This document shows positions 3,729 to 34,165 of a stretch of 64,000 nucleotides of DNA, one piece after another (the stretch's first letter is position 1; every line of letters starts with the position of its first letter). The translations under genes were made by a program, and so were the position numbers. Location of the stretch: contig NZ_CP017157.1 in the NCBI RefSeq assembly GCF_001729485.1, positions 3,038,001 to 3,102,000 of the forward strand, read 5' to 3'. The DNA is from Streptomyces lydicus. GTDB lineage: Bacteria > Actinomycetota > Actinomycetes > Streptomycetales > Streptomycetaceae. Under the pieces are notes generated by a model. That model saw nothing but the letters and a program-made list of their open reading frames with translations. It was not told the DNA's origin and did not search any database.

Positions 3729-4573
3729 TTCACGGCTCCAAGCGACAGGCCCTGGACGAGTTTGTCCTGGGCGGCGAACCCGGCGACGATCACCGGGAGG
3801 GAGATGACGGTGGCGGCGGCGCACACCTTGGCCAGGAACAGGCCCTGGCTGGTGACGAGTCCGGTCAGGAACACCGGCGCGGTGCCGGCCACGATCCCGG
3901 TCAGCACCCGGGCGAACAGCAGCTCGTTCCAGCTGAAGATGAAGGAGATCAGGGCGGTGGCGGCGATGCCGGGCATGGCGACCGGCGCCACGATCCGGGT
4001 CAGCGTGGTGGTCAGCCCCGCACCGTCGATCGAGGCGGCCTCCAGCATCTCCACCGGCACCTCGGCGAGGAACGAGCGCATCATCCACACCGCGATCGGC
4101 AGGTTCATCGAGGTGTAGAGGAGGACCAGCAGCCAGATGCTGTCGAGCATCCCGGCGTTCTGGGCGACGAGATAGACCGGCAGCAGCCCGGCCACCAGCG
4201 GCAGCATCTTCGTGGAGAGGAAGAAGAACAACACGTCGCTCCACTTGCGTACCGGCTTGATCGCCAGCGCGTAGGCGGCCGGGACCGCCAGGGCGAGCAC
4301 CAGGAGCGTGGAAACCACCGAGGCGGTCAGCGAGTTGATCAGCGGCGGCCAGGGGCTGATGCCACCGCCCCCGCCGAAGAACTCGCGGTAGCCGTGCAGG
4401 CTCAGTCCGGCGCCGACGCTCGGCGGGTTGGTCGCCGCGTCCGTCTCGCTGTGGAACGACGTCAGCACCATCCAGGCGACGGGCAGGAAGAAGGCGATCC
4501 CGCACAGCCAGGCCACCAGGCCCAGCGCACCGCCGGTCCGCCGCCGGCGCGGAGCCGTGGTCATGACGCTCAT
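3725..4573 (-). CDS. Carbohydrate ABC transporter permease (MalG-type)
   Basis: This 282-residue inner-membrane protein forms half of the sugar import channel. Six hydrophobic segments are visible, starting with one at residues 15-40. The EAA loop that contacts the ATPase appears as EMLEAASIDGAG followed about ten residues later by the downstream Pro. The C-terminus (QDKLVQGLSLGAVK) is the hallmark end of CUT1 MalG-type permeases. Both ends overlap neighbouring genes by 4 bp, indicating tight translational coupling. No ATPase gene is present in the operon; Streptomyces sugar importers often share one MsiK-type ATPase encoded elsewhere, so this absence is expected. Confidence 0.93.
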   Translation of the reverse strand: MSVMTTAPRRRRTGGALGLVAWLCGIAFFLPVAWMVLTSFHSETDAATNPPSVGAGLSLHGYREFFGGGGGISPWPPLINSLTASVVSTLLVLALAVPAAYALAIKPVRKWSDVLFFFLSTKMLPLVAGLLPVYLVAQNAGMLDSIWLLVLLYTSMNLPIAVWMMRSFLAEVPVEMLEAASIDGAGLTTTLTRIVAPVAMPGIAATALISFIFSWNELLFARVLTGIVAGTAPVFLTGLVTSQGLFLAKVCAAATVISLPVIVAGFAAQDKLVQGLSLGAVK

Positions 4574-5547
4574 CGGGTGACCTCCTCGCGCAGCAGGGAC
4601 GACACGGTGCGCAGCGCGAAGGTGGCCACGACCAGTGAGCACAGCACCACGACGACGCCCTGCGCGGACGCCCGTCCGTAGTCGTGGGCCTGGTAGAAGG
4701 TCTGGTAGATGGTGTACGGCAGGTTGGCGGTGCCCAGGCCGCCGGAGGTGATGGTGAACACCGCGTCGAAGTTCTGGACGACGTACACGGTGCCCAGCAG
4801 CGCGGCCAGTTCGAGGTAGCGGCGCAGGTGCGGCAGGGTCAGGTAGCGGAAGACGTCGAAGGCGGAGGCGCCGTCCATCCGCGCCGCCTCGATCGCGTCG
4901 CCGGCCCGGCTCTGCAGACCGGCCAGCAGGATCAGCATCATGAACGGCGTCCACTGCCAGATCAGTGACACCTCGACCGCGGCCAGCGGCGAGTCGGTCA
5001 TCCAGTCCGGCTGCGGCGGGCTGTCGCTGCCGAACAGCCGCCATATCCAGGTCAGTACGCCGTTGAGCAGCCCGTACGAGGCGTTGTACAGGGCGTGCTT
5101 CCACAGCAGCGCGGAGGCGACCGGCACCACCAGGAACGGCGTGATCAGCAGGGTCCGTACGATGCCCCGGCCCCGGAAGCTGCGGTCCAGCAGCAGCGCG
5201 AGGCCCAGTCCCAGCAGCAGGCTGACCAGCACCACGGTCACGGTCAGCAGCACCGTGGTGCCCACCGAGGACCGCATCGCCGGATCGGTGAAGACGGCCC
5301 GGTAGTTGTCGAAGGCGGCGAAGCCGCGGTTGTCGGGGGCCAGCGCGTTCCACCGGGTGAAGGAGATCACCACCGTGGCCACGAACGGCAGTTGGGTGAC
5401 GATGACGAGGAAGACCAGCGCGGGCAGCAGCGGCGCCCGGCGGGCCCAGTCCTTGGCCCGTCCGGTGCGGCGGGCCCGGGCGGCGGGCGCCGGGCCGGCC
5501 GGCCCGGCCGCGGTGCCCCGGGGCGGCTCAGTGGTTTGCGTAGACAT
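4570..5547 (-). CDS. Carbohydrate ABC transporter permease (MalF-type)
   Basis: This 325-residue inner-membrane protein is the partner permease of the MalG-type gene downstream. A 35-residue basic cytoplasmic N-terminus leads into the first membrane segment (LLPALVFLVIVTQLPFV), followed by five more. The coupling loop reads DAIEAARMDGASAFDVFR, a good match to the EAA motif. The start overlaps the last 20 bp of the binding-protein gene and the stop overlaps the next start by 4 bp. It would pair with a shared MsiK-like ATPase, as no ATPase lies nearby. Confidence 0.93.
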   Translation of the reverse strand: MSTQTTEPPRGTAAGPAGPAPAARARRTGRAKDWARRAPLLPALVFLVIVTQLPFVATVVISFTRWNALAPDNRGFAAFDNYRAVFTDPAMRSSVGTTVLLTVTVVLVSLLLGLGLALLLDRSFRGRGIVRTLLITPFLVVPVASALLWKHALYNASYGLLNGVLTWIWRLFGSDSPPQPDWMTDSPLAAVEVSLIWQWTPFMMLILLAGLQSRAGDAIEAARMDGASAFDVFRYLTLPHLRRYLELAALLGTVYVVQNFDAVFTITSGGLGTANLPYTIYQTFYQAHDYGRASAQGVVVVLCSLVVATFALRTVSSLLREEVTR

Positions 5548-6907
5548 CGGACACCTCCTGCGCCAGTCGCCGGCTCTTCGCCAGGGCCTCGGGCACGCTC
5601 TGCTTGCCGGCGATGGCCGCGCTGATCTCGTGGGACACCTTGGTCCCCAGGTCGGAGAACTCCGGGATGCCGACGAACTGGATGCCGGGCGCCGGGCGCG
5701 GCTGCACGCCGGGACTGTCGGGCCGGGCCGAGCTGATCGCGTCCCTGGTGGCGGTGGCGAACGCGCCCGCGGACTTCAGGTACTCCGGGTCGCGGTAGAG
5801 CGACGCCCGCTTGCCGCCGGGCACCCTCGACCAGCCCAGCTCGCGCCCCACCAGCCGCTCGTAGCCCTTGCCGGACGCCCAGCGGATGAACCGCCACGCC
5901 GCGTCCTGGTGCGTGCTGGCCTTCTGCACGCCCCACGCCCAGGTGTACAGCCAGCCCGCGTCGCGGGTCCGCTCGACCGGCGCGGGGGCGTAGCCGACCT
6001 TGCCGGCGACCTTGGACTCACCGCTCTCCAGCGAACCGGCGCCGGCGGTCGCGTCGTACCACATGGCGACGTTGCCCTGCTGCATGTCGTTGAGGCACTC
6101 GGTGTAGCCGGCCTGCGGAGCGCCCGCCTCGCCGTGCTTGCGGACCAGGTCGACGTAGAACCGGGTGGCCCGGGTGAACTCCGGGCTGTCCACCCCGGGC
6201 CGCCAGTCCTTGGTGAACCAGGTGCCGCCGAAGGTGTTGACGACGGTGGTCAGCGGGGCGGCCAGCTGGCCCCAGCCGGGCTGGCCGCGCAGGCAGATGC
6301 CCTTCAGGCCCTTGCGGCTGCCGTCCAACTCGGCCGCCGCCGCGGCGACCTGGTGCCAGGTGGGGTGGGCCGGCATGGTCAGCCCGGCGGCCTTGAGGAG
6401 GTCCTTGCGGTACATCAGGAACGAGGACTCGCCGTAGAACGGCTCGGCGTAGATCTTGCCGTCGGCGGCCGTGAGGGAGGAACGGAGCGGCGGCAGGATG
6501 TCGCCCTGGTCGAACGCGCGGTCCTTGGCGGCGCGCTCACCGAGCGGGGCGAGCCAGCCGTTGCGGGCGTAGATGGGCGTCTCGTAGTTGCTGAGGCTGG
6601 CCACGTCGTACTGCCCGGCCTGGCTGGAGAAGTCCTGGCTCATCTTGTCGCGCAGGTCGTCCTCCGGCAGGACGGTGAAGTGCACCTTGATGCCGGTGTC
6701 CTTGGTGAAGTGCTCGGCGGTCAGCCGTTGCAGGTCCACCATCTGCGGGTTGTTGACCATCAGGACATTGATGCTCCGGCCGTCGTCGTTGCCCGCGTCG
6801 CCGGCGCCGCGGTAGCAGCCGGTGGCGGACAGCGACAGGGCCAGGGCGACGGCGGTCAGCGCGCTCGCGCGGGGGCCGCGGCCCGCTCCGGGGGATCTTG
6901 CTCTCAC
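5528..6907 (-). CDS. Extracellular sugar-binding lipoprotein of ABC importer
   Basis: This 459-residue lipoprotein captures the solute outside the membrane for the two permeases encoded next. I chose the GTG at 6907 because it gives a compact signal peptide: an Arg-rich start, a hydrophobic stretch at residues 16-28, and the lipobox LSATGC with the lipidated cysteine at residue 31. An ATG further upstream would add about 60 residues of no signal character. The mature protein has the SBP family 1 layout, with segments such as INVLMVNNPQMVDLQ and FYGESSFLMYRKD near the start of each lobe. It ends 20 bp inside the next gene. A 194-bp gap separates it from the regulator gene upstream on the same strand. 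Confidence 0.92.
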   Translation of the reverse strand: MRARSPGAGRGPRASALTAVALALSLSATGCYRGAGDAGNDDGRSINVLMVNNPQMVDLQRLTAEHFTKDTGIKVHFTVLPEDDLRDKMSQDFSSQAGQYDVASLSNYETPIYARNGWLAPLGERAAKDRAFDQGDILPPLRSSLTAADGKIYAEPFYGESSFLMYRKDLLKAAGLTMPAHPTWHQVAAAAAELDGSRKGLKGICLRGQPGWGQLAAPLTTVVNTFGGTWFTKDWRPGVDSPEFTRATRFYVDLVRKHGEAGAPQAGYTECLNDMQQGNVAMWYDATAGAGSLESGESKVAGKVGYAPAPVERTRDAGWLYTWAWGVQKASTHQDAAWRFIRWASGKGYERLVGRELGWSRVPGGKRASLYRDPEYLKSAGAFATATRDAISSARPDSPGVQPRPAPGIQFVGIPEFSDLGTKVSHEISAAIAGKQSVPEALAKSRRLAQEVSDVYANH

Positions 6908-8672: not shown

Positions 8673-9881
8673 TCATGGCCGGGCCGGCCCCCGTCCCGCC
8701 GGACACGCCCTGACCCCCAGCCAGCCGCCGTCGAACCGGGCGAAAGTGAGCTTCCGGTAGGGCCCGGACTCGTAGAGCAGCCCGAACGTGCCGTCCGTGA
8801 GCCGGGTCAGCGTCGAGTAGGCCGCCGCGCCCGGCGTCACGGTCCGGGCGAGCGGCCAGGTCACCCCGTCGTCGCAGGACACCCGCACGGTGAGGTTCTC
8901 CCGCGCGCGGGTGCTCGCCGTGTTGCTGAACAGCAGCCAGTGGGCGCGCGGCAGGCGGGCCGGCGCCGTCGGGTCGTAGCGCAGCAGCGAGGCGTTGTTG
9001 CCCGGGTCGATCAGCGCGTCGTCGACCGCCGGGGCGCTGTAGGTCAGCCCGCCGTCGCGGGAGTGCGCGACCAGCCGTCTGCGGACGCTGCCGGTGCGGC
9101 TGTTGAGCAGGACGCGCCCGTCGGCCAGTTCGACCGTCTTGTTCTCGTCCATCCGCGGCCCCACCGGCCTCCCCAGGTGCCAGCTCGCCCCGTGGTCGTC
9201 GCTGTACGCGCCGGCCGCCCACATGCTGCCGTCGGCCTTGCGGAACGCGTACTGCTGGAGCAGCCGGCCGCCCGCCAGCTGGCTGCCGGCGCCGGACGAG
9301 GCGAAGATGCCGCGCCAGGAAGGGTCCTTGAGGACACGGGTGAGGCGCCGGTGGTGCCAGTGGCGGCCGCCGTCGTCGGAACGGCTGTAGTCGGTGTGCA
9401 GCACGCCGGTGCTGTCGGGTGCGTTGCCCGCCCCGGCGCTGCGGAACCCGACGCCCCTGGGCGCGTACGCGTGGAACAGGAAGACCCGGCCGGTCGTCCG
9501 GTCCACCAGCAGGCTCGGATCGCCGGCGCCCACCCCGCCGTCGTAGTCCACCGCCGCCCGCGGGGCACTCCAGGTACGCCCCTTGTCGGTGCTCCGCCGC
9601 ACCATCACGTCCACGTTCCCCGGCAGATCGGCGGCGCTGTCGTTGCGCCGGTCGTAGGCCGCGAGGAGGGTGCCGTCCGGCAGCGTCGCCAGCGCCGGGA
9701 TGCGGTAGGTGTGCGCGCCCTGCCCCGACACCGCCAGATCGGTGCTCTCGAACAGGGCCGACCGCCCGGCGGCGCGGTGTGCCGCCGGGCGCGGCGCGGC
9801 CGCCGGCACCGGCAGGACGGACCACAGACCGAGGCCGGCGCCGATCAGCGCGGCCAGTGTGCGGGGGCGGACGGCCGTCAC
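8673..9881 (-). CDS. Secreted exo-alpha-sialidase (GH33-like)
   Basis: This 402-residue protein hydrolyses terminal sialic acids from glycans outside the cell. A signal peptide is visible at residues 1-28 (basic VTAVRPR start, hydrophobic core, Ala-rich cleavage region). The YRIP motif at 59-62 carries the first arginine of the catalytic triad, and an Asp-rich RRNDSAADLPGN segment follows. Asp boxes (S-x-D-x-G-x-x-W) are seen as STDKGRTW, SDDGGRHW, SDDHGASW and SCDDGVTW, plus a degenerate SRDGGLTY, consistent with a six-bladed propeller. I chose the GTG at 9881 because a GGAGG lies just upstream. There is no carbohydrate-binding module. No sialic acid uptake genes are nearby. Confidence 0.92.
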   Translation of the reverse strand: MTAVRPRTLAALIGAGLGLWSVLPVPAAAPRPAAHRAAGRSALFESTDLAVSGQGAHTYRIPALATLPDGTLLAAYDRRNDSAADLPGNVDVMVRRSTDKGRTWSAPRAAVDYDGGVGAGDPSLLVDRTTGRVFLFHAYAPRGVGFRSAGAGNAPDSTGVLHTDYSRSDDGGRHWHHRRLTRVLKDPSWRGIFASSGAGSQLAGGRLLQQYAFRKADGSMWAAGAYSDDHGASWHLGRPVGPRMDENKTVELADGRVLLNSRTGSVRRRLVAHSRDGGLTYSAPAVDDALIDPGNNASLLRYDPTAPARLPRAHWLLFSNTASTRARENLTVRVSCDDGVTWPLARTVTPGAAAYSTLTRLTDGTFGLLYESGPYRKLTFARFDGGWLGVRACPAGRGPARP

Positions 9882-25227: not shown

Positions 25228-27354
25228 TCACGCCGCCCGCGTCCGGCCGGGCGGCCGGGAGGCCAGCAGCATCAGGGCCACGTCGTCCTGCCGCGCCGCG
25301 TCGGCGTGCAGGTGCGCCAGCAGGGCGTCGGCGAGGCGGTCGGGGCTCTGCGCCGGTCCGCCGTCGAGACGGGCGGCGAGCGCGGCGACGGCGCTGTCCA
25401 GATCGACGCCCGGCGTCTCGATCAGGCCGTCGGTGTAGAGGGCGAGCAGGGAGTCCGGGGGGAGGCCGATCTGGGTGGCCTCGTACCGGGCGTCGGGCTC
25501 GATGCCCAGCAGCAGGCCCGGCGGAACCCGCAGCACCTCGGTGTGCCCGTCGGGGTGGCGGAGGATCGGCGGCGGATGGCCCGCGCTGGCCAGGCACGCG
25601 ACCCGGGTCCGCAGGTCGATGTGGACGTACAGGCAGCTGGTGAACAGCTCCGGGTCGAGGTCCGTCAGCAGCCGGTTCGTCCGGGCCAGCACCTCGCCCG
25701 GTGACGCGCCGGCGGTGGCGTGGGCGTGCACGGCGGTACGCGCCTGTCCCATGAGGGCGGCGGCCGCGGCGTTGTGCCCCTGGACGTCGCCGATGACGGC
25801 GGCGACGTGGTGCTCGTCGAGGCGGATCAGGTCGTAGAAGTCACCGCCGATGTCCATGCCGCGGGCCGACGGCAGATAGCGGGCGGCGACGGCCAGCCCG
25901 GGCACCGAGGGCAGGCTGTGCGGCAGCAGCCCGGCCTGCAGGTCGTGCGCCAGCTGCTGCTTGGCGTCGTACAGCCGGGCACGGTCCAGCGCCTGGGCGA
26001 TCAGCCCGGCGAGGGACGTGAGGACCTGGCGTTCCTCGGTGCTGAAGGTGCGGGGCCGGGCGTACGACAGGATGCAGCAGCCGACCGGACGGCCGGAGAC
26101 GATCAGCGGCAGTACCGCCCGGGCCGCCTTTCCCGTCAGGTGCGGCAGTCCCGGGTAGTCGCTCTCGATCTCGTCGGGGGAGGAGTAGAAGCTGGGCTCC
26201 CCGGTGGACAGGACGTGCACGGCCGGGCTGTTGGCGGCGCCGAGGGCGACGCCCTCGAAGGTGGCGACGACCTCGGCGGAGTACCCGCGGTGGCCGATCG
26301 TGCGCAGCCGGCCGCCCTCCGCCGCGTACATGATCATGCCCTGGGCGCCGAAGGCCGGGACGATCTGGTCGGCGACGAGATGGACGACGTCCTGGACCCC
26401 CACCGCCTCGGTGAGCGCCGCCGCCAGGTGCAGTACGTGGTAGATCTGCCCGGCCCGTACGGGCACCGGCTCGCCCTCGGCCGGAAAGGGCGCCACCGGG
26501 CCGTGGTCCTTGCCCGACGGGCTGATCCAGACGCTCAGGCCCCGGCCGTCCGGGAAGAGCCGGAAGGTCAGCCACTGGTGCGAGGGGTGGCGGGCGGTGA
26601 AGGACACCGGCCGGCGGCTGAGCACCGCGGCGCGGTAGCGGTCCTCGAAGACCGGGTCGCGCATCCACGGCAGCGCCTCCCAGGGCCGCTCGCCGATCAG
26701 CCGCGACTCCTGCTCGCCGAGCAGCTCCACGGCGCCGGTCGAGACCAGGGTGATGCGGCCGTCCAGGTCCAGGGCGCACGCGCCGCCCGGCAGCCGCTCC
26801 AGGTAGTCGACCGCCGCCAGCGCCTGCTCCGTGCCGACCGTCCGCGCCGGCGGCGGCGCCAGCACCCGCGGCGCCTCGGGCGGCGGGGTGCGGCCGTCAG
26901 GGCGGGGACCGGCCGCCAGGAGGGCCGCCAGCCGCCCGCAGGCGGCCTCCACCGCCGCCTTCTCCTCCGCCGACAGCTGCGGCGGATGGCCCGCGGGCCA
27001 CAGCAGCAGCAGTGCGCCCAGCCGGACGGTGGCCTCGGTGACCGGCGCCGCGGCCAGCGAGAAGTCGTAGGGGACCGCCACCGCCGTACGGGGGAAGTCG
27101 CGCGCCAGCTGCTGATGGCCGCCGGCCCACACCAGCCGCTGCCGGCGGGTGGCGACGGCGACCGGGATCGGGGCCGCCAGGGCCACCCGGCACCAGGGGG
27201 TCAGGAACGGCGCCGGGAGGCCACTCATGACCGTCAGCTGGAGCACCGGCTCGTTACGCGTCAGCTCGTACAGCCCGGCCATGGAAGCGCCCGTCTCCCG
27301 CATCGCCCGGAGCAGTGCCCGGTCCACCGGACCGGAACCGGTCCCGCCGCTCAT
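25228..27354 (-). CDS. Multi-sensor SpoIIE phosphatase (GAF-PAS-GAF-PP2C)
   Basis: This 708-residue protein reads as an N-terminal GAF-like domain (about 10-150), a PAS domain (about 185-285, with GGACALDLDGRITLVSTGAV), a second GAF domain (about 315-465) and a C-terminal SpoIIE/PP2C phosphatase (about 480-695). Metal aspartates appear in IGGDFYDLI, VIGDVQGHN and RQDDVALMLL. It has no membrane segment, so it senses a cytoplasmic signal. Substrate would be a phosphorylated STAS protein. It is the third SpoIIE phosphatase within 7 kb, and is divergent from the gas vesicle operon with a 257-bp shared region that contains a 16-bp palindrome. Confidence 0.92.
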   Translation of the reverse strand: MSGGTGSGPVDRALLRAMRETGASMAGLYELTRNEPVLQLTVMSGLPAPFLTPWCRVALAAPIPVAVATRRQRLVWAGGHQQLARDFPRTAVAVPYDFSLAAAPVTEATVRLGALLLLWPAGHPPQLSAEEKAAVEAACGRLAALLAAGPRPDGRTPPPEAPRVLAPPPARTVGTEQALAAVDYLERLPGGACALDLDGRITLVSTGAVELLGEQESRLIGERPWEALPWMRDPVFEDRYRAAVLSRRPVSFTARHPSHQWLTFRLFPDGRGLSVWISPSGKDHGPVAPFPAEGEPVPVRAGQIYHVLHLAAALTEAVGVQDVVHLVADQIVPAFGAQGMIMYAAEGGRLRTIGHRGYSAEVVATFEGVALGAANSPAVHVLSTGEPSFYSSPDEIESDYPGLPHLTGKAARAVLPLIVSGRPVGCCILSYARPRTFSTEERQVLTSLAGLIAQALDRARLYDAKQQLAHDLQAGLLPHSLPSVPGLAVAARYLPSARGMDIGGDFYDLIRLDEHHVAAVIGDVQGHNAAAAALMGQARTAVHAHATAGASPGEVLARTNRLLTDLDPELFTSCLYVHIDLRTRVACLASAGHPPPILRHPDGHTEVLRVPPGLLLGIEPDARYEATQIGLPPDSLLALYTDGLIETPGVDLDSAVAALAARLDGGPAQSPDRLADALLAHLHADAARQDDVALMLLASRPPGRTRAA

Positions 27355-27611: not shown

Positions 27612-28052
27612 ATGGCCGCAGAAGACGACGAAACAGCGCGCGTCCGGCGCCCGACCAGCCGGAAGACCGCGGCGAAGACCGCCAGGAAGACCAGCGGCGT
27701 GAAGACCGCGGGGAAGTCCGGCGAAAGCCGGGACGGCAGCCGGACGAGCGAGGACACCACGAGCCAGGACACCACGCACCGCGCGGGCCGCCGCGTCTCG
27801 GCACCGCGGGCCATGCGGAGGGCGGCCGAACAGCTCCAGGAGCTGCTGGGCCGGGCCCCCGAGTCCGTCTCCGCGGTCAAACCGACCGACAACGGCTGGC
27901 AGGCGGACGTGGAAGTCCTGGAGCTGGAACGCGTCCCGGGGACCACCAGCGTGATGGCGAGTTACCGGGTGACGCTGGACGAGGAGGGCGAACTGCTGGC
28001 GTACGAGCGCATCCGCCGCTACACCCGGGGGCAGATCGACCCGCGGGGCTGA
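27612..28052 (+). CDS. gvpO: Gas vesicle protein GvpO
   Basis: This 146-residue protein carries the GvpO domain in its C-terminal half (residues 65-142), ending in the conserved ELLAYERIRRYTRGQ. The N-terminal 55 residues are a basic, Lys/Thr/Ser-rich low-complexity tail. GvpO is a small accessory or regulatory protein found at the head of actinobacterial gas vesicle clusters. ATG 27612 follows GGAGAGGG. It is the first gene of the gvpO-A-F-G-J-L-S-K series, all on the same strand. Confidence 0.9.
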   Translation: MAAEDDETARVRRPTSRKTAAKTARKTSGVKTAGKSGESRDGSRTSEDTTSQDTTHRAGRRVSAPRAMRRAAEQLQELLGRAPESVSAVKPTDNGWQADVEVLELERVPGTTSVMASYRVTLDEEGELLAYERIRRYTRGQIDPRG

Positions 28053-28136
28053 ACCGGGGATGCCGCGCCGGCACTGTTCGGCCGACGAACGAAACGGCCG
28101 CTCCGCGACCGGGGCGGGCCGGTGAAGGGAGGCACC

Positions 28137-28595
28137 GTGACTGTGGTGCCGCAAGGCCAAGGAACCATGTCCCGGGGCGGTGGAGCCAGCTCCGGAAACC
28201 TCTACGACATCCTCGATCTGATCCTGGACCGCGGGCTGGTCATCGACGTCTTCGCACGGGTGTCGCTGGTCGGCATCGAGATCCTCAAGATCGACGCCCG
28301 CATCGTCGTGGCGAGCGTCGACACCTATCTGCGGTTCGCGGAGGCATGCAACCGCCTCGACCTCGAGGCCGGCAACAAGAAGCCCCAGGACCTGACGGAT
28401 CTGGTCGGCGAGATGACCGAGAGCGGGTCCCACGGCAAGGCCAAGGGGGCCCTGAGCGGAGCCGCGGATGCGGTGGCCAACGCCCTCAAGGGAGGGAGCG
28501 ACGAGGACGAGGAGGAGCCCGAGGAACGGCAGAAGGAGCCGGCGGGCAAGCGCGAGCGGCCGGCTCGCCGACCGGTACGGCACCGAAAGGAATGA
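28137..28595 (+). CDS. gvpA: Gas vesicle structural protein GvpA (extended C-terminus)
   Basis: This 152-residue protein has the GvpA core at about residues 20-85: [20 protein letters not shown], ending in [19 protein letters not shown]. GvpA monomers assemble into the ribbed shell of the vesicle. The C-terminal 65 residues are a charged Glu/Lys/Arg tail, longer than classical GvpA, as seen in Streptomyces gvp proteins. I chose GTG 28137 because GGGAGG lies six bases upstream. The stop is 4 bp before gvpF. Whether this protein builds true gas-filled vesicles in Streptomyces is doubtful; no gas vesicles have generally been seen there. Confidence 0.92.
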
Positions 28596-28598
28596 GCC

Positions 28599-29312
28599 AT
28601 GGCCGTTTATGTCTACTCCATCGTCGCGACCTCACATCCGCACCGCCTGGACGACCTGAAGGGTGTGGGCGATCCGCCCACCGCGCTGCGCACCGTGAAG
28701 GACGGGGAGCTGACCGCGGTCGTCAGTGACGCCCCCGAGGAGCTCCGTGCCAAACGCCGCGACCTCGCCGCCCACCAGGCGGTCCAGGAGCGGCTGATGG
28801 CCGACGGCACGGTCCTGCCGCTGCAGTTCGGGTTCGTCACCGACGACGACGCCGCCGTACGGACGGTGCTGGAGGAGCGCGCGGAGCAGTACACCGAACG
28901 GCTGGCGGCGCTGGAGGGCAGCACGGAGTACCACCTGAAGGCCGCCCAGGACGAGGACGCCCTGCTGCGCCAGATCCTGCTGGAGAACGACCGGGCCCGC
29001 GAACTCAACGAGCAGATCAGAAGCGGCCAGGGCAGCCCGGACCTGCCGCTCGCCCTCGGTGAACTCGTCTCCCAGGAGGTCCAGGCCCGCCAGGCCCACC
29101 TCGCCGACTCGGTCATCGACGCGCTGCGCGGCCTGGCCCAGGAAGTACGGGTGTCGGAGCCGACCGGCGACGACTTCGTGAACGTGTCCTTCCTGGTGCA
29201 CCGGGACGGCGAAGACGCCTTCCGCACCGCCGAGAAGGAACTCGCCGACGAACTCGGCGGCGACTTCGACCTGCGGCTGCGCGGCCCGCTGCCCGCGTAC
29301 AGCTTCGTGTGA
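28599..29312 (+). CDS. gvpF: Gas vesicle protein GvpF/GvpL
   Basis: This 237-residue protein has the two-lobed GvpF/L fold: an N-terminal alpha/beta lobe (MAVYVYSIVATSHPHRLDDL) and a C-terminal ferredoxin-like lobe ending in GPLPAYSFV, the family's characteristic final segment. GvpF is thought to prevent or template GvpA assembly. Ribosome site AAAGGA precedes ATG 28599, and gvpG starts 10 bp after the stop. The related gvpL occurs at 30234. Confidence 0.93.
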   Translation: MAVYVYSIVATSHPHRLDDLKGVGDPPTALRTVKDGELTAVVSDAPEELRAKRRDLAAHQAVQERLMADGTVLPLQFGFVTDDDAAVRTVLEERAEQYTERLAALEGSTEYHLKAAQDEDALLRQILLENDRARELNEQIRSGQGSPDLPLALGELVSQEVQARQAHLADSVIDALRGLAQEVRVSEPTGDDFVNVSFLVHRDGEDAFRTAEKELADELGGDFDLRLRGPLPAYSFV

Positions 29313-29322
29313 GGAGGACGTC

Positions 29323-29577
29323 ATGGCAGGGCTGCTGACCCATCTCGCGACCCTCCCGCTGGCACCGGTGCGCGGCGTCGCCTGGGTCATGGAGCGGGTC
29401 GTCGAGGCCGCGGAGGACGAGGCGTACGACCCGGCGCCCGTCGAGCAGGAACTCGCCCGGCTGGAGGAGAAGCTGCTGGCGGGCGAGATCGACGAGGAGA
29501 CGTTCGACCGGCGCGAGGACGAACTGCTGGACCAACTGGAGGAGATCAGGGCCCACCGCCGCATCACCGGCCCCTGA
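29323..29577 (+). CDS. gvpG: Gas vesicle protein GvpG
   Basis: This 84-residue protein opens with MAGLLTHLATLPLAPVRGVA, the amphipathic start typical of GvpG, and continues as a charged coiled-coil-like helix (LARLEEKLLAGEIDEETFD and EDELLDQLEEIRAH). GvpG is a minor assembly factor. A GAGGAGG ribosome site lies just upstream. A tract of 15-bp repeats begins 24 bp after its stop, and in one shifted frame it would add an acidic tail to this protein. Confidence 0.92.
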   Translation: MAGLLTHLATLPLAPVRGVAWVMERVVEAAEDEAYDPAPVEQELARLEEKLLAGEIDEETFDRREDELLDQLEEIRAHRRITGP

Positions 29578-29736: not shown

Positions 29737-30237
29737 GTGACCGAACCCGTCGCCAGGAGGACCGGCGACTACCCGTCCCGAGCAACCCCGTACGGCCAGC
29801 AGGGCTCCTCGGCCAACCTCGCCGACATCCTCGAACGGGTCCTGGACAAGGGCATCGTGATCGCCGGTGACATCCAGATCAACCTCCTGGACATCGAACT
29901 GCTCACCATCAAGCTGCGGCTGCTGGTCGCCTCGGTCGACAAGGCGAAGGAGATGGGCATCGACTGGTGGGAGCACGACCCCGCCCTGTCGTCCCGGGCC
30001 GCCGACGGCAACCGCTCGCTCACCGAGGAGAACCGGCGGCTGCGCGCCGAGATCGAGGAACTGCGCGCGGGCGCCGAGCTGCCGGCGGCCGAGGAGAGCC
30101 CCCGCGCGTCGGCCGAGGAGAGCCCCCGGGCCTCGGCGGAAGAGAGTTCCCGCCCCGCGCGTGCCTCGAACCCTTCGCGCACCACCAGGGGGAAGAAGGC
30201 GGCGGCCCGCCCCCGTAAGAAGCGGGACACACCATGA
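29737..30237 (+). CDS. gvpJ: Gas vesicle protein GvpJ (GvpA-family, extended)
   Basis: This 166-residue GvpA paralogue has the core SANLADILERVLDKGIVIAG through KLRLLVASVDKAKEMGIDWW at residues 25-80, the version with WW after the core that marks GvpJ. A C-terminal tail includes a short repeat (EESPRASA twice, then EESSRPARA) and ends in a Lys/Arg-rich stretch. GTG 29737 follows GGAGGG. The stop overlaps gvpL by 4 bp (ATGA). GvpJ is a minor shell or conical-tip protein. Confidence 0.88.
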   Translation: MTEPVARRTGDYPSRATPYGQQGSSANLADILERVLDKGIVIAGDIQINLLDIELLTIKLRLLVASVDKAKEMGIDWWEHDPALSSRAADGNRSLTEENRRLRAEIEELRAGAELPAAEESPRASAEESPRASAEESSRPARASNPSRTTRGKKAAARPRKKRDTP

Positions 30238-31046
30238 CCGGGACCGTCGCGTACGCCTACGCGGTGGCGCGGGACCCCGACGGCTCGCTGGAGGAGGCGC
30301 TCGGCGGGCTGCCCGGGGTCGCGGACGCCCCGGTCCGGCTGGTGCGCACCGGCGGCCGGGGGGACGTGGTGGTCGCGGTGAGCCAGGTGCCCGAGCGGGA
30401 CTTCGAGGAGGGCGCGCTCCGGGCCCACCTGGAAGACCTGGACTGGCTGGAGGGCGTCGCCCGCGCCCACCACCGGGTGATCGAGGCGCTGGCGGCACGC
30501 ACCACCGTCCTGCCGCTCCGCCTCGCCACCGTCTATCTCGACGAGGAACGCGTGCGGCTGATGCTCGAAGAGCGCCTGGCGGCGTTCGCCGACCGGCTGT
30601 CCGCCCTGGACGCCCATGTGGAGTGGGGCGTCAAGCTGTACGTCGAGGCCCCCGCCGAGGCCGCCCCGCAGGCCGGGGCGCCGGAACCGGACCTCAGCCC
30701 CGGGAGGGCCTACCTCAGGCGTCGCGGCGCGCAGCGGCACGCCCGCGAGGACGCCTACCGCGATGCCGAGGAGGCGGCCCGGCGCATCGACGCCGCCGTC
30801 CGTCCGTACGCGGTCGACCGGGTCCAGCACCGCCCGCAGCAGGGCGAACTCGCCCGTGGACCCGGCGAGAACGTCGTCAACGACGCCTATCTCGTGTCGC
30901 AGGAGCACGCCGAGAGCTTCCGCGCGGACGTGCTGCGGGCCGCCGAGGGACTGCCCGGCGTACGTGTCGAGGTCACCGGCCCCTGGGCCCCGTACTCCTT
31001 CGCCACGCCCACCGAGGCCGAACCGCTGAGGAGAGCCGCGCAGTGA
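30234..31046 (+). CDS. gvpL: Gas vesicle protein GvpL
   Basis: This 270-residue protein is a second GvpF/L member: N-terminal TVAYAYAVARDPDG and a C-terminal lobe ending WAPYSFATP. It is more diverged from gvpF than the structural proteins are from each other. Its start overlaps the gvpJ stop by 4 bp, and its own stop overlaps the GTG of the next gene by 4 bp. It is an assembly accessory protein. Confidence 0.92.
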   Translation: MTGTVAYAYAVARDPDGSLEEALGGLPGVADAPVRLVRTGGRGDVVVAVSQVPERDFEEGALRAHLEDLDWLEGVARAHHRVIEALAARTTVLPLRLATVYLDEERVRLMLEERLAAFADRLSALDAHVEWGVKLYVEAPAEAAPQAGAPEPDLSPGRAYLRRRGAQRHAREDAYRDAEEAARRIDAAVRPYAVDRVQHRPQQGELARGPGENVVNDAYLVSQEHAESFRADVLRAAEGLPGVRVEVTGPWAPYSFATPTEAEPLRRAAQ

Positions 31047-31291
31047 GAGCCGCGGGCGGGCCGCCGGCCAGGGCGGACGAGCCGCTGCCGGACCGGCAGA
31101 TCGCACTGATCGACCTGCTGGACCGGCTGCTCAGCGGAGGTGTGGTGCTCACCGGCGACCTCGTGCTGTCCATCGCCGACATCGACCTGGTGCGCATCTC
31201 GCTGCGCGCGCTGATCGTCTCCATCAGCGAGCAGAATCCGGGCCCCTGGCCCTCCGTCACCGCTGCCCTGCGAGACGACGATGACCGCTGA
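31043..31291 (+). CDS. gvpS: Gas vesicle protein GvpS (short GvpA-family)
   Basis: This 82-residue protein is the third GvpA-family member. The core is IALIDLLDRLLSGGVVLTGD, followed by ISLRALIVSISEQ. It is the shortest, with no tail. It starts at GTG 31043, overlapping the gvpL stop by 4 bp, and its end overlaps the gvpK start by 11 bp. In Streptomyces clusters this position is occupied by gvpS. Confidence 0.85.
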   Translation: MRAAGGPPARADEPLPDRQIALIDLLDRLLSGGVVLTGDLVLSIADIDLVRISLRALIVSISEQNPGPWPSVTAALRDDDDR

Positions 31292-31694
31292 GGGCGACGG
31301 CCGCCCGGCCGGCAACCGCTTCGACGACATCGCCGACGCGGCGGCTCGCGCCTTCCGCCTGCTGCCCGCCGCGCCCCAGGACATCCAGCCCCCGGCCGGC
31401 GGGGCACCGCGCGGCCCCGCACACCGGGTCACCGCCGACCCCGACACCGTGGAGCGGGACCTGATCAAGCTCGTGCTCACCCTCGTCGAGCTGCTGCGGC
31501 AGCTCATGGAACGCCAGGCCCTCCAGCGGGTCGAGGCCGGGGGCCTCACCGAGGAACAGGAGGAACGGCTGGGCGCGACGCTGATGATCCTGCACAGCCG
31601 GATGGTGGAGCTGTGCGAGCAGTACGACCTGACCCTGCAGGACCTCAATCTCGACCTCGGGCCTCTCGGGACCTTGCTGCCGCCCGCCGAGTGA
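31281..31694 (+). CDS. gvpK: Gas vesicle protein GvpK
   Basis: This 137-residue protein carries the GvpK domain from about residue 50: VERDLIKLVLTLVELLRQLM, then GLTEEQEERLGATLMIL and the end LNLDLGPLGTLL. The first 50 residues are variable. GvpK is a conserved minor accessory protein. It is the last plus-strand gene of the cluster; a strong hairpin follows at 31762 before the convergent genes. Confidence 0.93.
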   Translation: MTAEGDGRPAGNRFDDIADAAARAFRLLPAAPQDIQPPAGGAPRGPAHRVTADPDTVERDLIKLVLTLVELLRQLMERQALQRVEAGGLTEEQEERLGATLMILHSRMVELCEQYDLTLQDLNLDLGPLGTLLPPAE

Positions 31695-31818: not shown

Positions 31819-32856
31819 TCACTCCTCCTCTTCCTCCTCCGCGTACCCCTCTTCGTCCTCGTCCCATTCACCCTCGCCCTCTTCCTCCTCCGCGCCTTCT
31901 CCCTCTTCTCCCTCTTCCCCCTCTTCTTCTTCCTCCGGGACTTCCTCGTCGCCCTCGTAGCCCTCTTCGGCGTCCGCGTATTCCTCGCGGCCCTCGCCGT
32001 TCTCCTCGCCTTCCTCGGCTTCTTCGTTCGCTTCGCTTTCCTCTTCCTCGACGGCTTCCTCGTGGGTCTTCACGACCTCGCCGTCCCGCACCTCGCCGCG
32101 CCAGCCCTCCGGGTCCTTGTCGGTGAGGGTCACGTAGCGCTGGAAGTGCTTGAAGTCCAGCCGCAGCCGGCGGCCCTGGGCGCGCCAGATGTTTCCGGTC
32201 TTCTCGAAGAATCCCGAGGGGTAGTATTCGACGACCAGCACGATGCGGGTCAGATTCGGTGCCAGTTCATGGAAGCTGACCGCACCACGGGTCGATCCCT
32301 TGGCGCCGTCGGACGTCCAGACGATGCGGTCGTCGGGTATCTGCTCCTGCACCGTGGCCTTCCAGCCCCGGGTCGAGGGCCCGACCTTGACCTTCCAGTC
32401 GCTGGCCGTCTCGTCGCTGGACGAGACGCTGCGGACACCCTTCGTGAAGCTGCTGAACTTGTCGTACCGCGTCCAGTGGTCATAGGCGGTCCGCAGCGGC
32501 ACGCCGACGTCCAGCACCTCGATGATGTTGGTGACCTTGGTGGTTCCCGACGAGCGTCCCTTGCCCTTGCCGCCGCCGAAGACCTCCTTGGCCTTCTCCA
32601 CGACGTTTTCCTTGACGTCCTTCGCCTTGCCGGTCACCAGCGCCTTGAGGGGCGACTGACCGCTCAGCAGGCCGGAGGCGACCTTGCCCAGCGAGCCGCC
32701 GTTGCTGACGACGTCGGTGAGCTGCTCGGTGACGTCCCCCAGCTTGTCGCCGGCGCGTTCCGCCATGTTCCCGACCCACGCCGTCGCGTATTCGCCGAGC
32801 TCCTCACGCAGCCGATCGAGCCCCGAGTCCCCGCTGCCCTGTCCTGTCTTGGCCAT
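31819..32856 (-). CDS. gvpZ: GvpZ-like SRPBCC protein with acidic tail
   Basis: This 345-residue protein contains an SRPBCC domain at about residues 105-260: VTNIIEVLDVGVPLRTAYDH, FHELAPNLTRIVLVVEY, and the closing helix QGRRLRLDFKHFQRYV. The first 100 residues are helical and charged. From about residue 270 the protein is an almost pure Glu/Asp/Gly tail of some 75 residues. It is translated 6 bp after the gvpY-like gene with a GGAGGTGACC site. In the Streptomyces gas vesicle clusters I know, a gvpY-gvpZ pair lies between gvpG and gvpJ; here it is convergent to the cluster. The name rests on that similarity. Confidence 0.7.
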   Translation of the reverse strand: MAKTGQGSGDSGLDRLREELGEYATAWVGNMAERAGDKLGDVTEQLTDVVSNGGSLGKVASGLLSGQSPLKALVTGKAKDVKENVVEKAKEVFGGGKGKGRSSGTTKVTNIIEVLDVGVPLRTAYDHWTRYDKFSSFTKGVRSVSSSDETASDWKVKVGPSTRGWKATVQEQIPDDRIVWTSDGAKGSTRGAVSFHELAPNLTRIVLVVEYYPSGFFEKTGNIWRAQGRRLRLDFKHFQRYVTLTDKDPEGWRGEVRDGEVVKTHEEAVEEEESEANEEAEEGEENGEGREEYADAEEGYEGDEEVPEEEEEGEEGEEGEGAEEEEGEGEWDEDEEGYAEEEEEE

Positions 32857-32862
32857 GCCCGG

Positions 32863-33900
32863 TCACCTCCGGCCCTTGACGCGCGACGACGTCTTCTTCG
32901 CGCTCTGCTTCGTGGTTTTCTGCGCGGATTTCTGCGGAGATTTCTTCGCCGGCGGTCGGGCCGTCTTCTTCGCGGCCTTCTTCGCGGGCGCCTTCTTGGC
33001 CGGAGCCTTCTTCGCCGTCTTCTTCGCCGCGGTCTTCTTCGCTGCGGGCCGCTGCGCCGTGGCCTTCTTGGCCGGCGTCTTCTCAGCCGTGGCCTTCTTG
33101 GCGGCGGCCTTTTTGGCCGGGGCTTTTTTTGCGGGGGCCGCCTTCTTCCCCGTGGTCTTCTTCGCGGCGGCCTTCTTGGCCGGGGCCTTCTCCGCTGCGG
33201 GCCGCTTCGCAGCCGCCTTCTTCGCGGGTGCCTGCTTCGCCGCGGCCTTCTTCGCGGGGGCCTTCTCGGCCGGTGCCTTGCGCGCAGCGGGCCGCCTTCC
33301 GGGCCGCTTTGCCGGGGCCTTGCGCCCCGTGGGCCGTGCGCGGCGGGGCCGCTCGGGCTCCTCCTCCGGCTCCTCTTCTTCCTCCTCCTCTTCTTCCTCC
33401 TCAGGCTCTTCCTCAGGCTCTTCCTCTTCCTCCTCGGGCTCTTCCTCCTCGCCCTCGTACTCCTCCTCCGGCTCTTCCTCGCCCTCTTCCTCCTCGCCTT
33501 CCTCGTACTCCTCCTCTTCCTCCTCGGGCTCGCCCTCCTCGTACTCCTCCTCTTCCTCCTCTTCCCGTCCCGGCTTCAGCCCCACACCGCTTTCGAGCAG
33601 GCGGGTACGGTCGTGGAGCGTGTCGGCGAGATCGGCCAGCTTGCGGTTGGCGGCGCTCGTCAGCGCCTGCCGCCCGACATTCATGACCTCCCCGCGCAGC
33701 TGGTCGCCGAGCTCGGCGACCTGGGGGATCTCCCCGAGTCTGCGGACGCCCTCGGCGACCAGCTGGCGCGGCTCCAGACCGAACTGCTTCCCGGCGAGGT
33801 AGGACGCCGCGGTGAGAGCGAGCCGGCCCTTCTTCGTGCGGCCCAGTACGTACCCGCCGGCCACGGCCGCGGCGAGCATGATCTTGGTTCTCTCGTTCAT
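32863..33900 (-). CDS. gvpY: GvpY-like protein with acidic and histone H1-like tails
   Basis: This 345-residue protein has three parts. Residues 1-112 form a small folded region ([40 protein letters not shown]) that matches gvpY proteins as I recall them. Residues 113-186 are an almost uninterrupted poly-Glu stretch with Tyr/Gly/Pro. Residues 187-345 are Lys/Ala/Pro repeats ([12 protein letters not shown] type), like histone H1 or HU-type tails. Such a polyampholyte may self-associate or bind nucleic acid. ATG 33900 follows AAGGGG. The gene leads the gvpY-gvpZ pair. Confidence 0.65.
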
Positions 33901-34165
33901 GGATGCGTCCCCTTTTCCTGGGCGTGCTGCCGATCGGCGCCATAATTCAAGAGTGATCCGTGTGCCGGGCTACGCATCTCGAGCGGGCCGGAGGGGACGC
34001 TCCAAGACCCCGTTTCCCGCGGCCAACGGCCTGGTGAAAGGGGGTGCGCGCGCTTCGCCGGGGCGGTTTGAATCCCCGTCGGCGCGGGCCGTCGCGCCCT
34101 TTGCGCCGCGGCCGCGCGGGGAGCGCAGTCGTGCGGAGAAGGTGCGACGGACCTAGGCTCGGAAT

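Follow-up and report, generated by a model that had tools for sequence, protein, structure and literature searches.

The window, meaning the whole 64,000-nucleotide stretch of Streptomyces lydicus DNA analysed here, carries on its plus strand a gas-vesicle cluster whose genes, as assigned with Pfam, follow the order O-A-F-G-J-L-S-K: gvpO (27612..28052; GvpO), gvpA with a charged C-terminal tail (28122..28595; Gas_vesicle, and above the cut-off of NCBIfam PRK09368), gvpF (28599..29312; GvpL_GvpF), gvpG (29323..29577; GvpG), gvpJ (29737..30237; Gas_vesicle), gvpL (30234..31046; GvpL_GvpF), a gvpS-like gene of the Gas_vesicle family (31043..31291) and gvpK (31281..31694; GvpK, 2.3e-33). The next gvp gene after gvpG is gvpJ, with no gvpY or gvpZ in between. 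Candidates for both lie beyond gvpK on the minus strand, a gvpY-like gene at 32863-33900 and, directly 3' of it, a gvpZ-like gene at 31819-32856 that is convergent to gvpK, as the initial annotation of this DNA had described; each encodes 345 amino acids. Only six bases separate the gvpY stop from the gvpZ ATG, and a GGAGGTGA site, read by eye, lies immediately 5' of that ATG and overlaps the gvpY stop. It is very likely that GvpZ and GvpY are translated from one message. An antisense open reading frame of 627 amino acids (32062-33945, plus strand) spans gvpY and most of gvpZ.

GvpY begins with an N-domain (residues 1-104; 33589..33900, minus strand) that was delimited by a 20-sequence alignment, AlphaFold2 and hydropathy. 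G16, Y17, L19, G20, R21 and K24 are invariant in that alignment, the first helix is hydrophobic, and AlphaFold2 places four helices at residues 3-21, 23-40, 44-57 and 59-103 (ten-residue mean pLDDT 62-89), predicting no structure for anything beyond, acidic and basic blocks alike. Against Pfam, the N-domain drew 13 scattered weak families, none of them in more than two of the 20 members; YtxH, a suspected kinship, was not among them, and a sequence search of solved structures returned four chance-level matches and no meaningful one. A Glu-rich acidic block, defined by composition and charge order, follows at about residues 105-182 (33355..33588, minus strand), with Glu at 57 of the 76 positions from 112 to 187. 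A block of about 75 residues had been claimed as nearly pure Glu, and its presence and length hold, but its purity does not, as Glu makes up about 75% and the rest is mostly Pro, Gly and Tyr. From about residue 183 to 345 (32866..33354, minus strand) the protein turns into a basic block of Lys, Ala and Pro with PAKK and AAKK repeats, recognised by composition and by Pfam HC2 (PF07382; residues 197-339, 1.6e-13, 51.6 bits against a cut-off of 40, a low-complexity match). The stretch of about 160 such residues that had been described is seen here as 46 Lys, 12 Arg, 52 Ala and 18 Pro in the C-terminal 158, and the acidic-then-basic order of the whole tail stands 14.9 standard deviations above shuffled versions. 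GvpZ consists of an N-terminal extension, an SRPBCC domain (residues 117-238; 32143..32508, minus strand; Pfam Polyketide_cyc, 7.4e-18) and, as also annotated, a separate acidic tail, which by composition occupies the last 91 residues (31822..32094, minus strand; 53 acidic, 3 basic). Its AlphaFold model is poor (mean pLDDT 45.5), and a sequence search of solved structures gave nothing at 0.001.

The feature is a known gene pair. The source assembly, a single contig of 8.2 Mb, holds three gas-vesicle clusters, and the second of these (locus L010) has the textbook order with gvpY and gvpZ between gvpG and gvpJ; the window GvpY N-domain is 43% identical to its counterpart there (2.0e-18) and the window GvpZ 46%, although GvpY is 345 amino acids long in the window versus 209 in L010. 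These identities and the genus survey below establish the globular parts as GvpY and GvpZ homologues, which was the kinship first proposed. Near the third cluster (L009) neither gene was found, and a distant third GvpZ-like match (G000:C1:4175303-4175809, L013; 28% identity, one internal TGA) lies away from all three. According to PMC5839063, from which names and order are taken, both S. coelicolor clusters read gvpG-gvpY-gvpZ-gvpJ, with SCO6503/SCO6504 and SCO0653/SCO0654 in the gvpY/gvpZ places. The window pair shares with such canonical pairs the succession of Y and Z on one strand and the linkage to gas-vesicle genes, with homology measured against the genome's own canonical cluster, but differs in lying outside the operon, 3' of gvpK and inverted. 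The nearest public GvpZ proteins are from S. lydicus (96-97% identity over the matched part). Among the 120 public proteins listed for GvpY, the window GvpY and any copy above 82% identity are absent, which suggests that automatic annotation may overlook such gvpY genes; relatives in public records are labelled 'histone protein'. In open-licence literature we found no functional study of the Streptomyces pair, and several matches for gvpY and gvpZ concern Serratia genes, which share the names and a place in gas-vesicle clusters, are likened by name only, and are treated here as homonyms.

Arrangement of the pair in Streptomyces and beyond

A single-sequence search with the GvpY N-domain, scoring up to 16 candidates in each genome, matched at least 220 of 295 Streptomyces genomes, the source genome included. 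From the matches listed, 120 were taken, comprising most matches with at least 50% identity and part of the weaker ones, and up to 14 kb was fetched around each; at least nine matches at 50% or above were left out, most of them on short contigs, and one of these nine or more (genome G028) was later examined as L257. With the window, L009 and L010 the survey set came to 123 loci, in which gene order was read by tblastn. The pair follows gvpG inside the operon at 61 of these loci (counting L097, where it sits behind a lone gvpG and ahead of a full cluster), lies divergently upstream of the cluster at 36, converges on the 3' side of gvpK at three (the window, L046 and L047), lies upstream on the same strand at two and is otherwise arranged at two (L009 and L127). 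No gvp gene was in view at the remaining 19, three of which have Y only; L148 and L155 end near a contig end, and the others were viewed within fetched flanks of 5-7 kb. Through all this the two genes stay together: of 124 Y genes, 119 have Z directly behind them in the same orientation, and a locus end truncates three of the other five.

In a GvpZ tree of 116 loci, arrangements group by clade, with 11 changes where shuffles average 48. The window's own six-member clade (support 100/98) mixes convergent, upstream and stand-alone forms. Y-Z is thus a unit that has been relocated repeatedly, and the window is one such case. The initial annotation had given the usual place of gvpY and gvpZ in Streptomyces as between gvpG and gvpJ, which is right for both S. 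coelicolor clusters but is one arrangement of several in the genus, and the position is a poor defining feature of Streptomyces GvpY. Nor do the data support the view that the window locus is special, since pairs outside the operon are common and its GvpY tail is long without being exceptional. Class-wide, the N-domain was matched in 88 of 394 genomes and 21 of 137 genera, and at 19 of 20 loci taken from other families of the class the pair accompanies gvp genes, frequently leading the cluster. In Actinomadura (L242, L246 and L247), two consecutive GvpZ-like matches occur with no GvpY detected.

Relocated beyond gvpK and inverted, the window pair would need a promoter of its own. A scan for sigma-70-type promoters between 31600 and 34250 returned none. 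Eight terminator-like sites were found there against 3.7 expected, seven of them in the gvpY repeats and one between gvpK and gvpZ. The sigma-B-like consensus used, G-N2-T-N14-16-GGGTAY, was found within about 300 bases upstream of 0 of 124 Y matches and 4 of 103 O matches, so that control of Y-Z by sigma-B directly is not supported.

Several further genes recur in these neighbourhoods. A fatty-acid desaturase gene lies near the stand-alone pairs L068, L079, L081, L144 and L145 and near none of the other 104 loci. The window gene divergent from gvpO (25228-27354, minus strand) encodes a protein similar to a GAF/PAS-SpoIIE protein of L081, and relatives occur at 18 of 123 loci, including the window and three stand-alone pairs. 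An envelope-related gene of the Asp23 family is found repeatedly just 3' of gvpK (L050, L052, L053, L055, L057 and nine others) or beside gvpYZ (L131:6679-7074 and 8952-9395; L123:6429-6767).

Charge order in the GvpY tails

Of 124 GvpY sequences, three without a stop, one with masked bases and L059, whose tail has six residues, were set aside, and the remaining 119 gave complete tails. The acidic-then-basic order lies more than two standard deviations above shuffles in 118 of them, the sole exception being L142 (z 1.9), and the reverse order occurs in none. The same order was found in 19 of 20 GvpY tails from other families, the twentieth at z 2.0, and in all 30 of the 33 named loci that have a GvpY match, although some of those genomes had already been counted. 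The sequences that carry this order are unlike one another, with acidic units such as DEGGDEQ or EEEP and basic units such as KKAPAKK or mixtures of Arg and Ser. Acidic and basic counts covary among 106 tails (r 0.80, uncorrected for ancestry or tail length), and single tails are not neutral, the number of basic minus acidic residues running from -25 to +14 between the 5th and 95th percentiles.

A constant charge order built from unlike repeats, together with the covariation of acidic and basic residues, argues that selection acts on the charge pattern of the tail more than on its sequence, as judged from these comparisons. One might instead regard the tails as slippage products without function, and they are indeed built of imperfect tandem repeats, with lengths in the set of 106 running from 63 to 373 residues; 14 of them, the window's included, reach the window's 242. 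However, neutral expansion of this kind would have to accommodate a charge order that is kept by 118 of 119 tails and is almost as constant in other families, whose repeat units differ, as well as acid and base numbers that track each other, and we consider it very improbable. One tail-less case was seen, L059 in genome G202, where GvpY ends after the N-domain at 106 amino acids in an otherwise canonical cluster, as a natural allele or through a sequence error. That the long tails might be a repeat expansion confined to this locus had been raised with the annotation; long bipartite tails are present across relatives, which speaks against a purely local origin.

For S. coelicolor, PMC5839063 suggests that Gvp proteins, controlled by ArgR, store nitrogen, and the charged proteins here could be imagined to serve the same end. 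The GvpY tail has 0.415 side-chain nitrogens per residue, however, which lies inside the range of four other window proteins (0.372-0.459), and the GvpZ tail has only 0.108, leaving this the least credible of the explanations considered.

The pair in genomes without detected gas-vesicle genes

GvpK was matched in 239 of the 295 Streptomyces genomes and both GvpK and GvpY in 214 (Fisher p 7e-31, relatedness ignored). The 25 GvpK-bearing genomes without a GvpY match, together with the third cluster of the source genome, indicate that gas-vesicle clusters can dispense with GvpY. The converse was found in six genomes that have GvpY without GvpK. One is a fragmented assembly that has GvpF/L and GvpA; the other five (G037, G044, G100, G137 and G270) are also without a GvpF/L or GvpA match. 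The G044 and G100 assemblies consist of one and two contigs at 99-100% completeness, and Streptomyces sp. ADI96-02, a 100% match to G100, likewise gave no GvpF/L match. Y and Z are adjacent in four of the five (L123, L131, L139 and L140) and lie on two contigs in G270 (Y at L148, Z at L258). The charged tails are kept in such genomes (78 acidic and 53 basic residues at L123, 47 and 25 at L131). In rough NG86 estimates for the N-domain and GvpZ in 13 chosen locus pairs, dN was below dS in 26 of 26 comparisons, although dS was almost saturated for the most distant pairs; L123-L131 is the only compared pair in which both genomes lack detected gas-vesicle genes, and dN is below dS there too. The stand-alone loci L222, L223 and L225 are of another kind, as their genomes carry GvpF/L elsewhere.

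These five genomes bear directly on the possibility that the pair chaperones or loads GvpA and GvpJ through its charged tails, in the manner of the acidic blocks of histone chaperones, and has no role outside gas vesicles. Such an assembly factor would fit the presence of GvpK in 214 of the 220 GvpY genomes and the tendency of the pair to sit with gvp genes, as it does at 19 of the 20 loci sampled outside its own family, but it sits badly with a pair found where GvpK, GvpF/L and GvpA were not matched and with dN below dS between L123 and L131, and we hold it to be unlikely. The pair is thus not strictly tied to shell building, in keeping with the suggestion of the initial annotation that it is something other than a shell part, and it may have a job of its own apart from gas vesicles. 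Two findings are new here. The charge architecture is conserved, and the pair turns up in genomes that gave no match to gas-vesicle genes, an occurrence that separates the two functions and supplies natural shell-free cases of the pair.

Near Y-Z in all five of these genomes, as well as in G088 and G028, there is also an unnamed family, c3, with a core of about 92 residues and no convincing Pfam or NCBIfam match (L140:8519-9010, plus strand; L131:5298-6482; L123 near 5241-5633; L139:9672-10658; L143 near 3998-4402; L257:2873-3550; L258:1030-1506). The thought that c3 might be a hidden GvpA relative was ruled out by an hhalign probability of 1.4. A broader and rather doubtful proposal is that GvpY-GvpZ is a portable, charge-patterned surface-to-nucleoid adaptor of actinomycetes and not a gas-vesicle part, with gas vesicles as its commonest client and, in some Streptomyces, another compartment (membrane, lipid body or other) that would involve c3 and Asp23-type proteins.

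A tentative adaptor and its likeness to nucleoid tethers

The reading that we prefer, still tentatively, is that GvpY bridges a surface and the nucleoid as a two-ended adaptor comparable to PhaF or AlgP, that it brings an acidic counter-block of its own, and that gas vesicles are its main user, from which it can be separated. The N-domain, with its hydrophobic first helix and its GYxLGR turn followed by Lys, would dock on a protein or lipid surface, which may be the gas vesicle or the place of its assembly in genomes that have gvp genes and another surface elsewhere. The disordered Lys/Ala/Pro tail would bind DNA non-specifically, in the way reported for PhaF, PhaM and AlgP. The acidic block could act as counter-charge and spacer, stopping the basic tail from sticking everywhere and keeping it open to competing partners, whether DNA, the acidic tail of GvpZ or another chain. 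With its SRPBCC domain and acidic tail, GvpZ could pair with GvpY. We infer the surface and DNA binding of GvpY, the contact between Y and Z, the placement of a compartment and the role of GvpZ. Counting against the adaptor are the scattered and weak N-domain matches, the almost tail-less GvpY of L059 and the gas-vesicle clusters in which no GvpY was matched.

The GvpZ tails bear on this contact. They have medians of 57 acidic and 7 basic residues among 111 tails, 85 of which shift from acidic towards basic along their length (z above 2), while the window copy does not. A more acidic GvpZ tail accompanies a more acidic GvpY tail and not a more basic one (Spearman -0.35, n=72), a correlation that gives no support to charge pairing between Y and Z. 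Acidic-then-basic tails at z 2 or above also occur in 42 of 105 GvpA and 16 of 104 GvpJ sequences, and the window copies of both (28356-28592, z 3.1, and 29953-30234, z 2.7) have them as well.

Ranking close behind the tether reading, if itself somewhat unlikely, is the idea, raised in outline with the annotation, that GvpY self-associates through its opposite blocks and the GvpZ tail and that a charge-driven droplet gathers gas-vesicle assembly factors, with DNA not among its partners. The presence of opposite charge blocks on one chain, the strongly acidic tail of the partner and the charged GvpA tails of the same clusters are all in line with such a condensate scaffold. It is weakened by the composition of the basic block, which is rich in Lys, Ala and Pro as in DNA-binding tails, and by the same Spearman correlation.

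The tether reading draws on the plan described for known proteins. AlgP has a 124-residue helical domain and a 195-residue disordered part with KPAA repeats (PMC9239181). Its C-terminal part is required for the spacing of polyphosphate granules, and its tail shares homology with the PhaF tail (PMC9239181 and PMC13052382). PhaM, PhaF and PhaH are described as binding granules with the N-terminal end and DNA with the C-terminal end (PMC13052382). The basic tail of GvpY also exceeds the curated cut-off of the HC2 or histone H1-like family (PF07382), but the tail alone matches and does so mainly by composition. To our knowledge, no HC2 protein has a GvpY-type N-domain or an acidic block. McdB, a carboxysome-positioning protein, can be named among the closest known systems as well. 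GvpY, by sequence and prediction, resembles AlgP of P. aeruginosa, PhaF of P. putida and PhaM of C. necator in its helical N-domain and long disordered Lys/Ala/Pro tail, a likeness of described plan, and differs from them in the long acidic block that separates domain and basic tail, as well as in the partner gene gvpZ. An AlgP-type layout with these two additions favours a tether that carries its own counter-charge, a testable idea for how an organelle might be held to the nucleoid.
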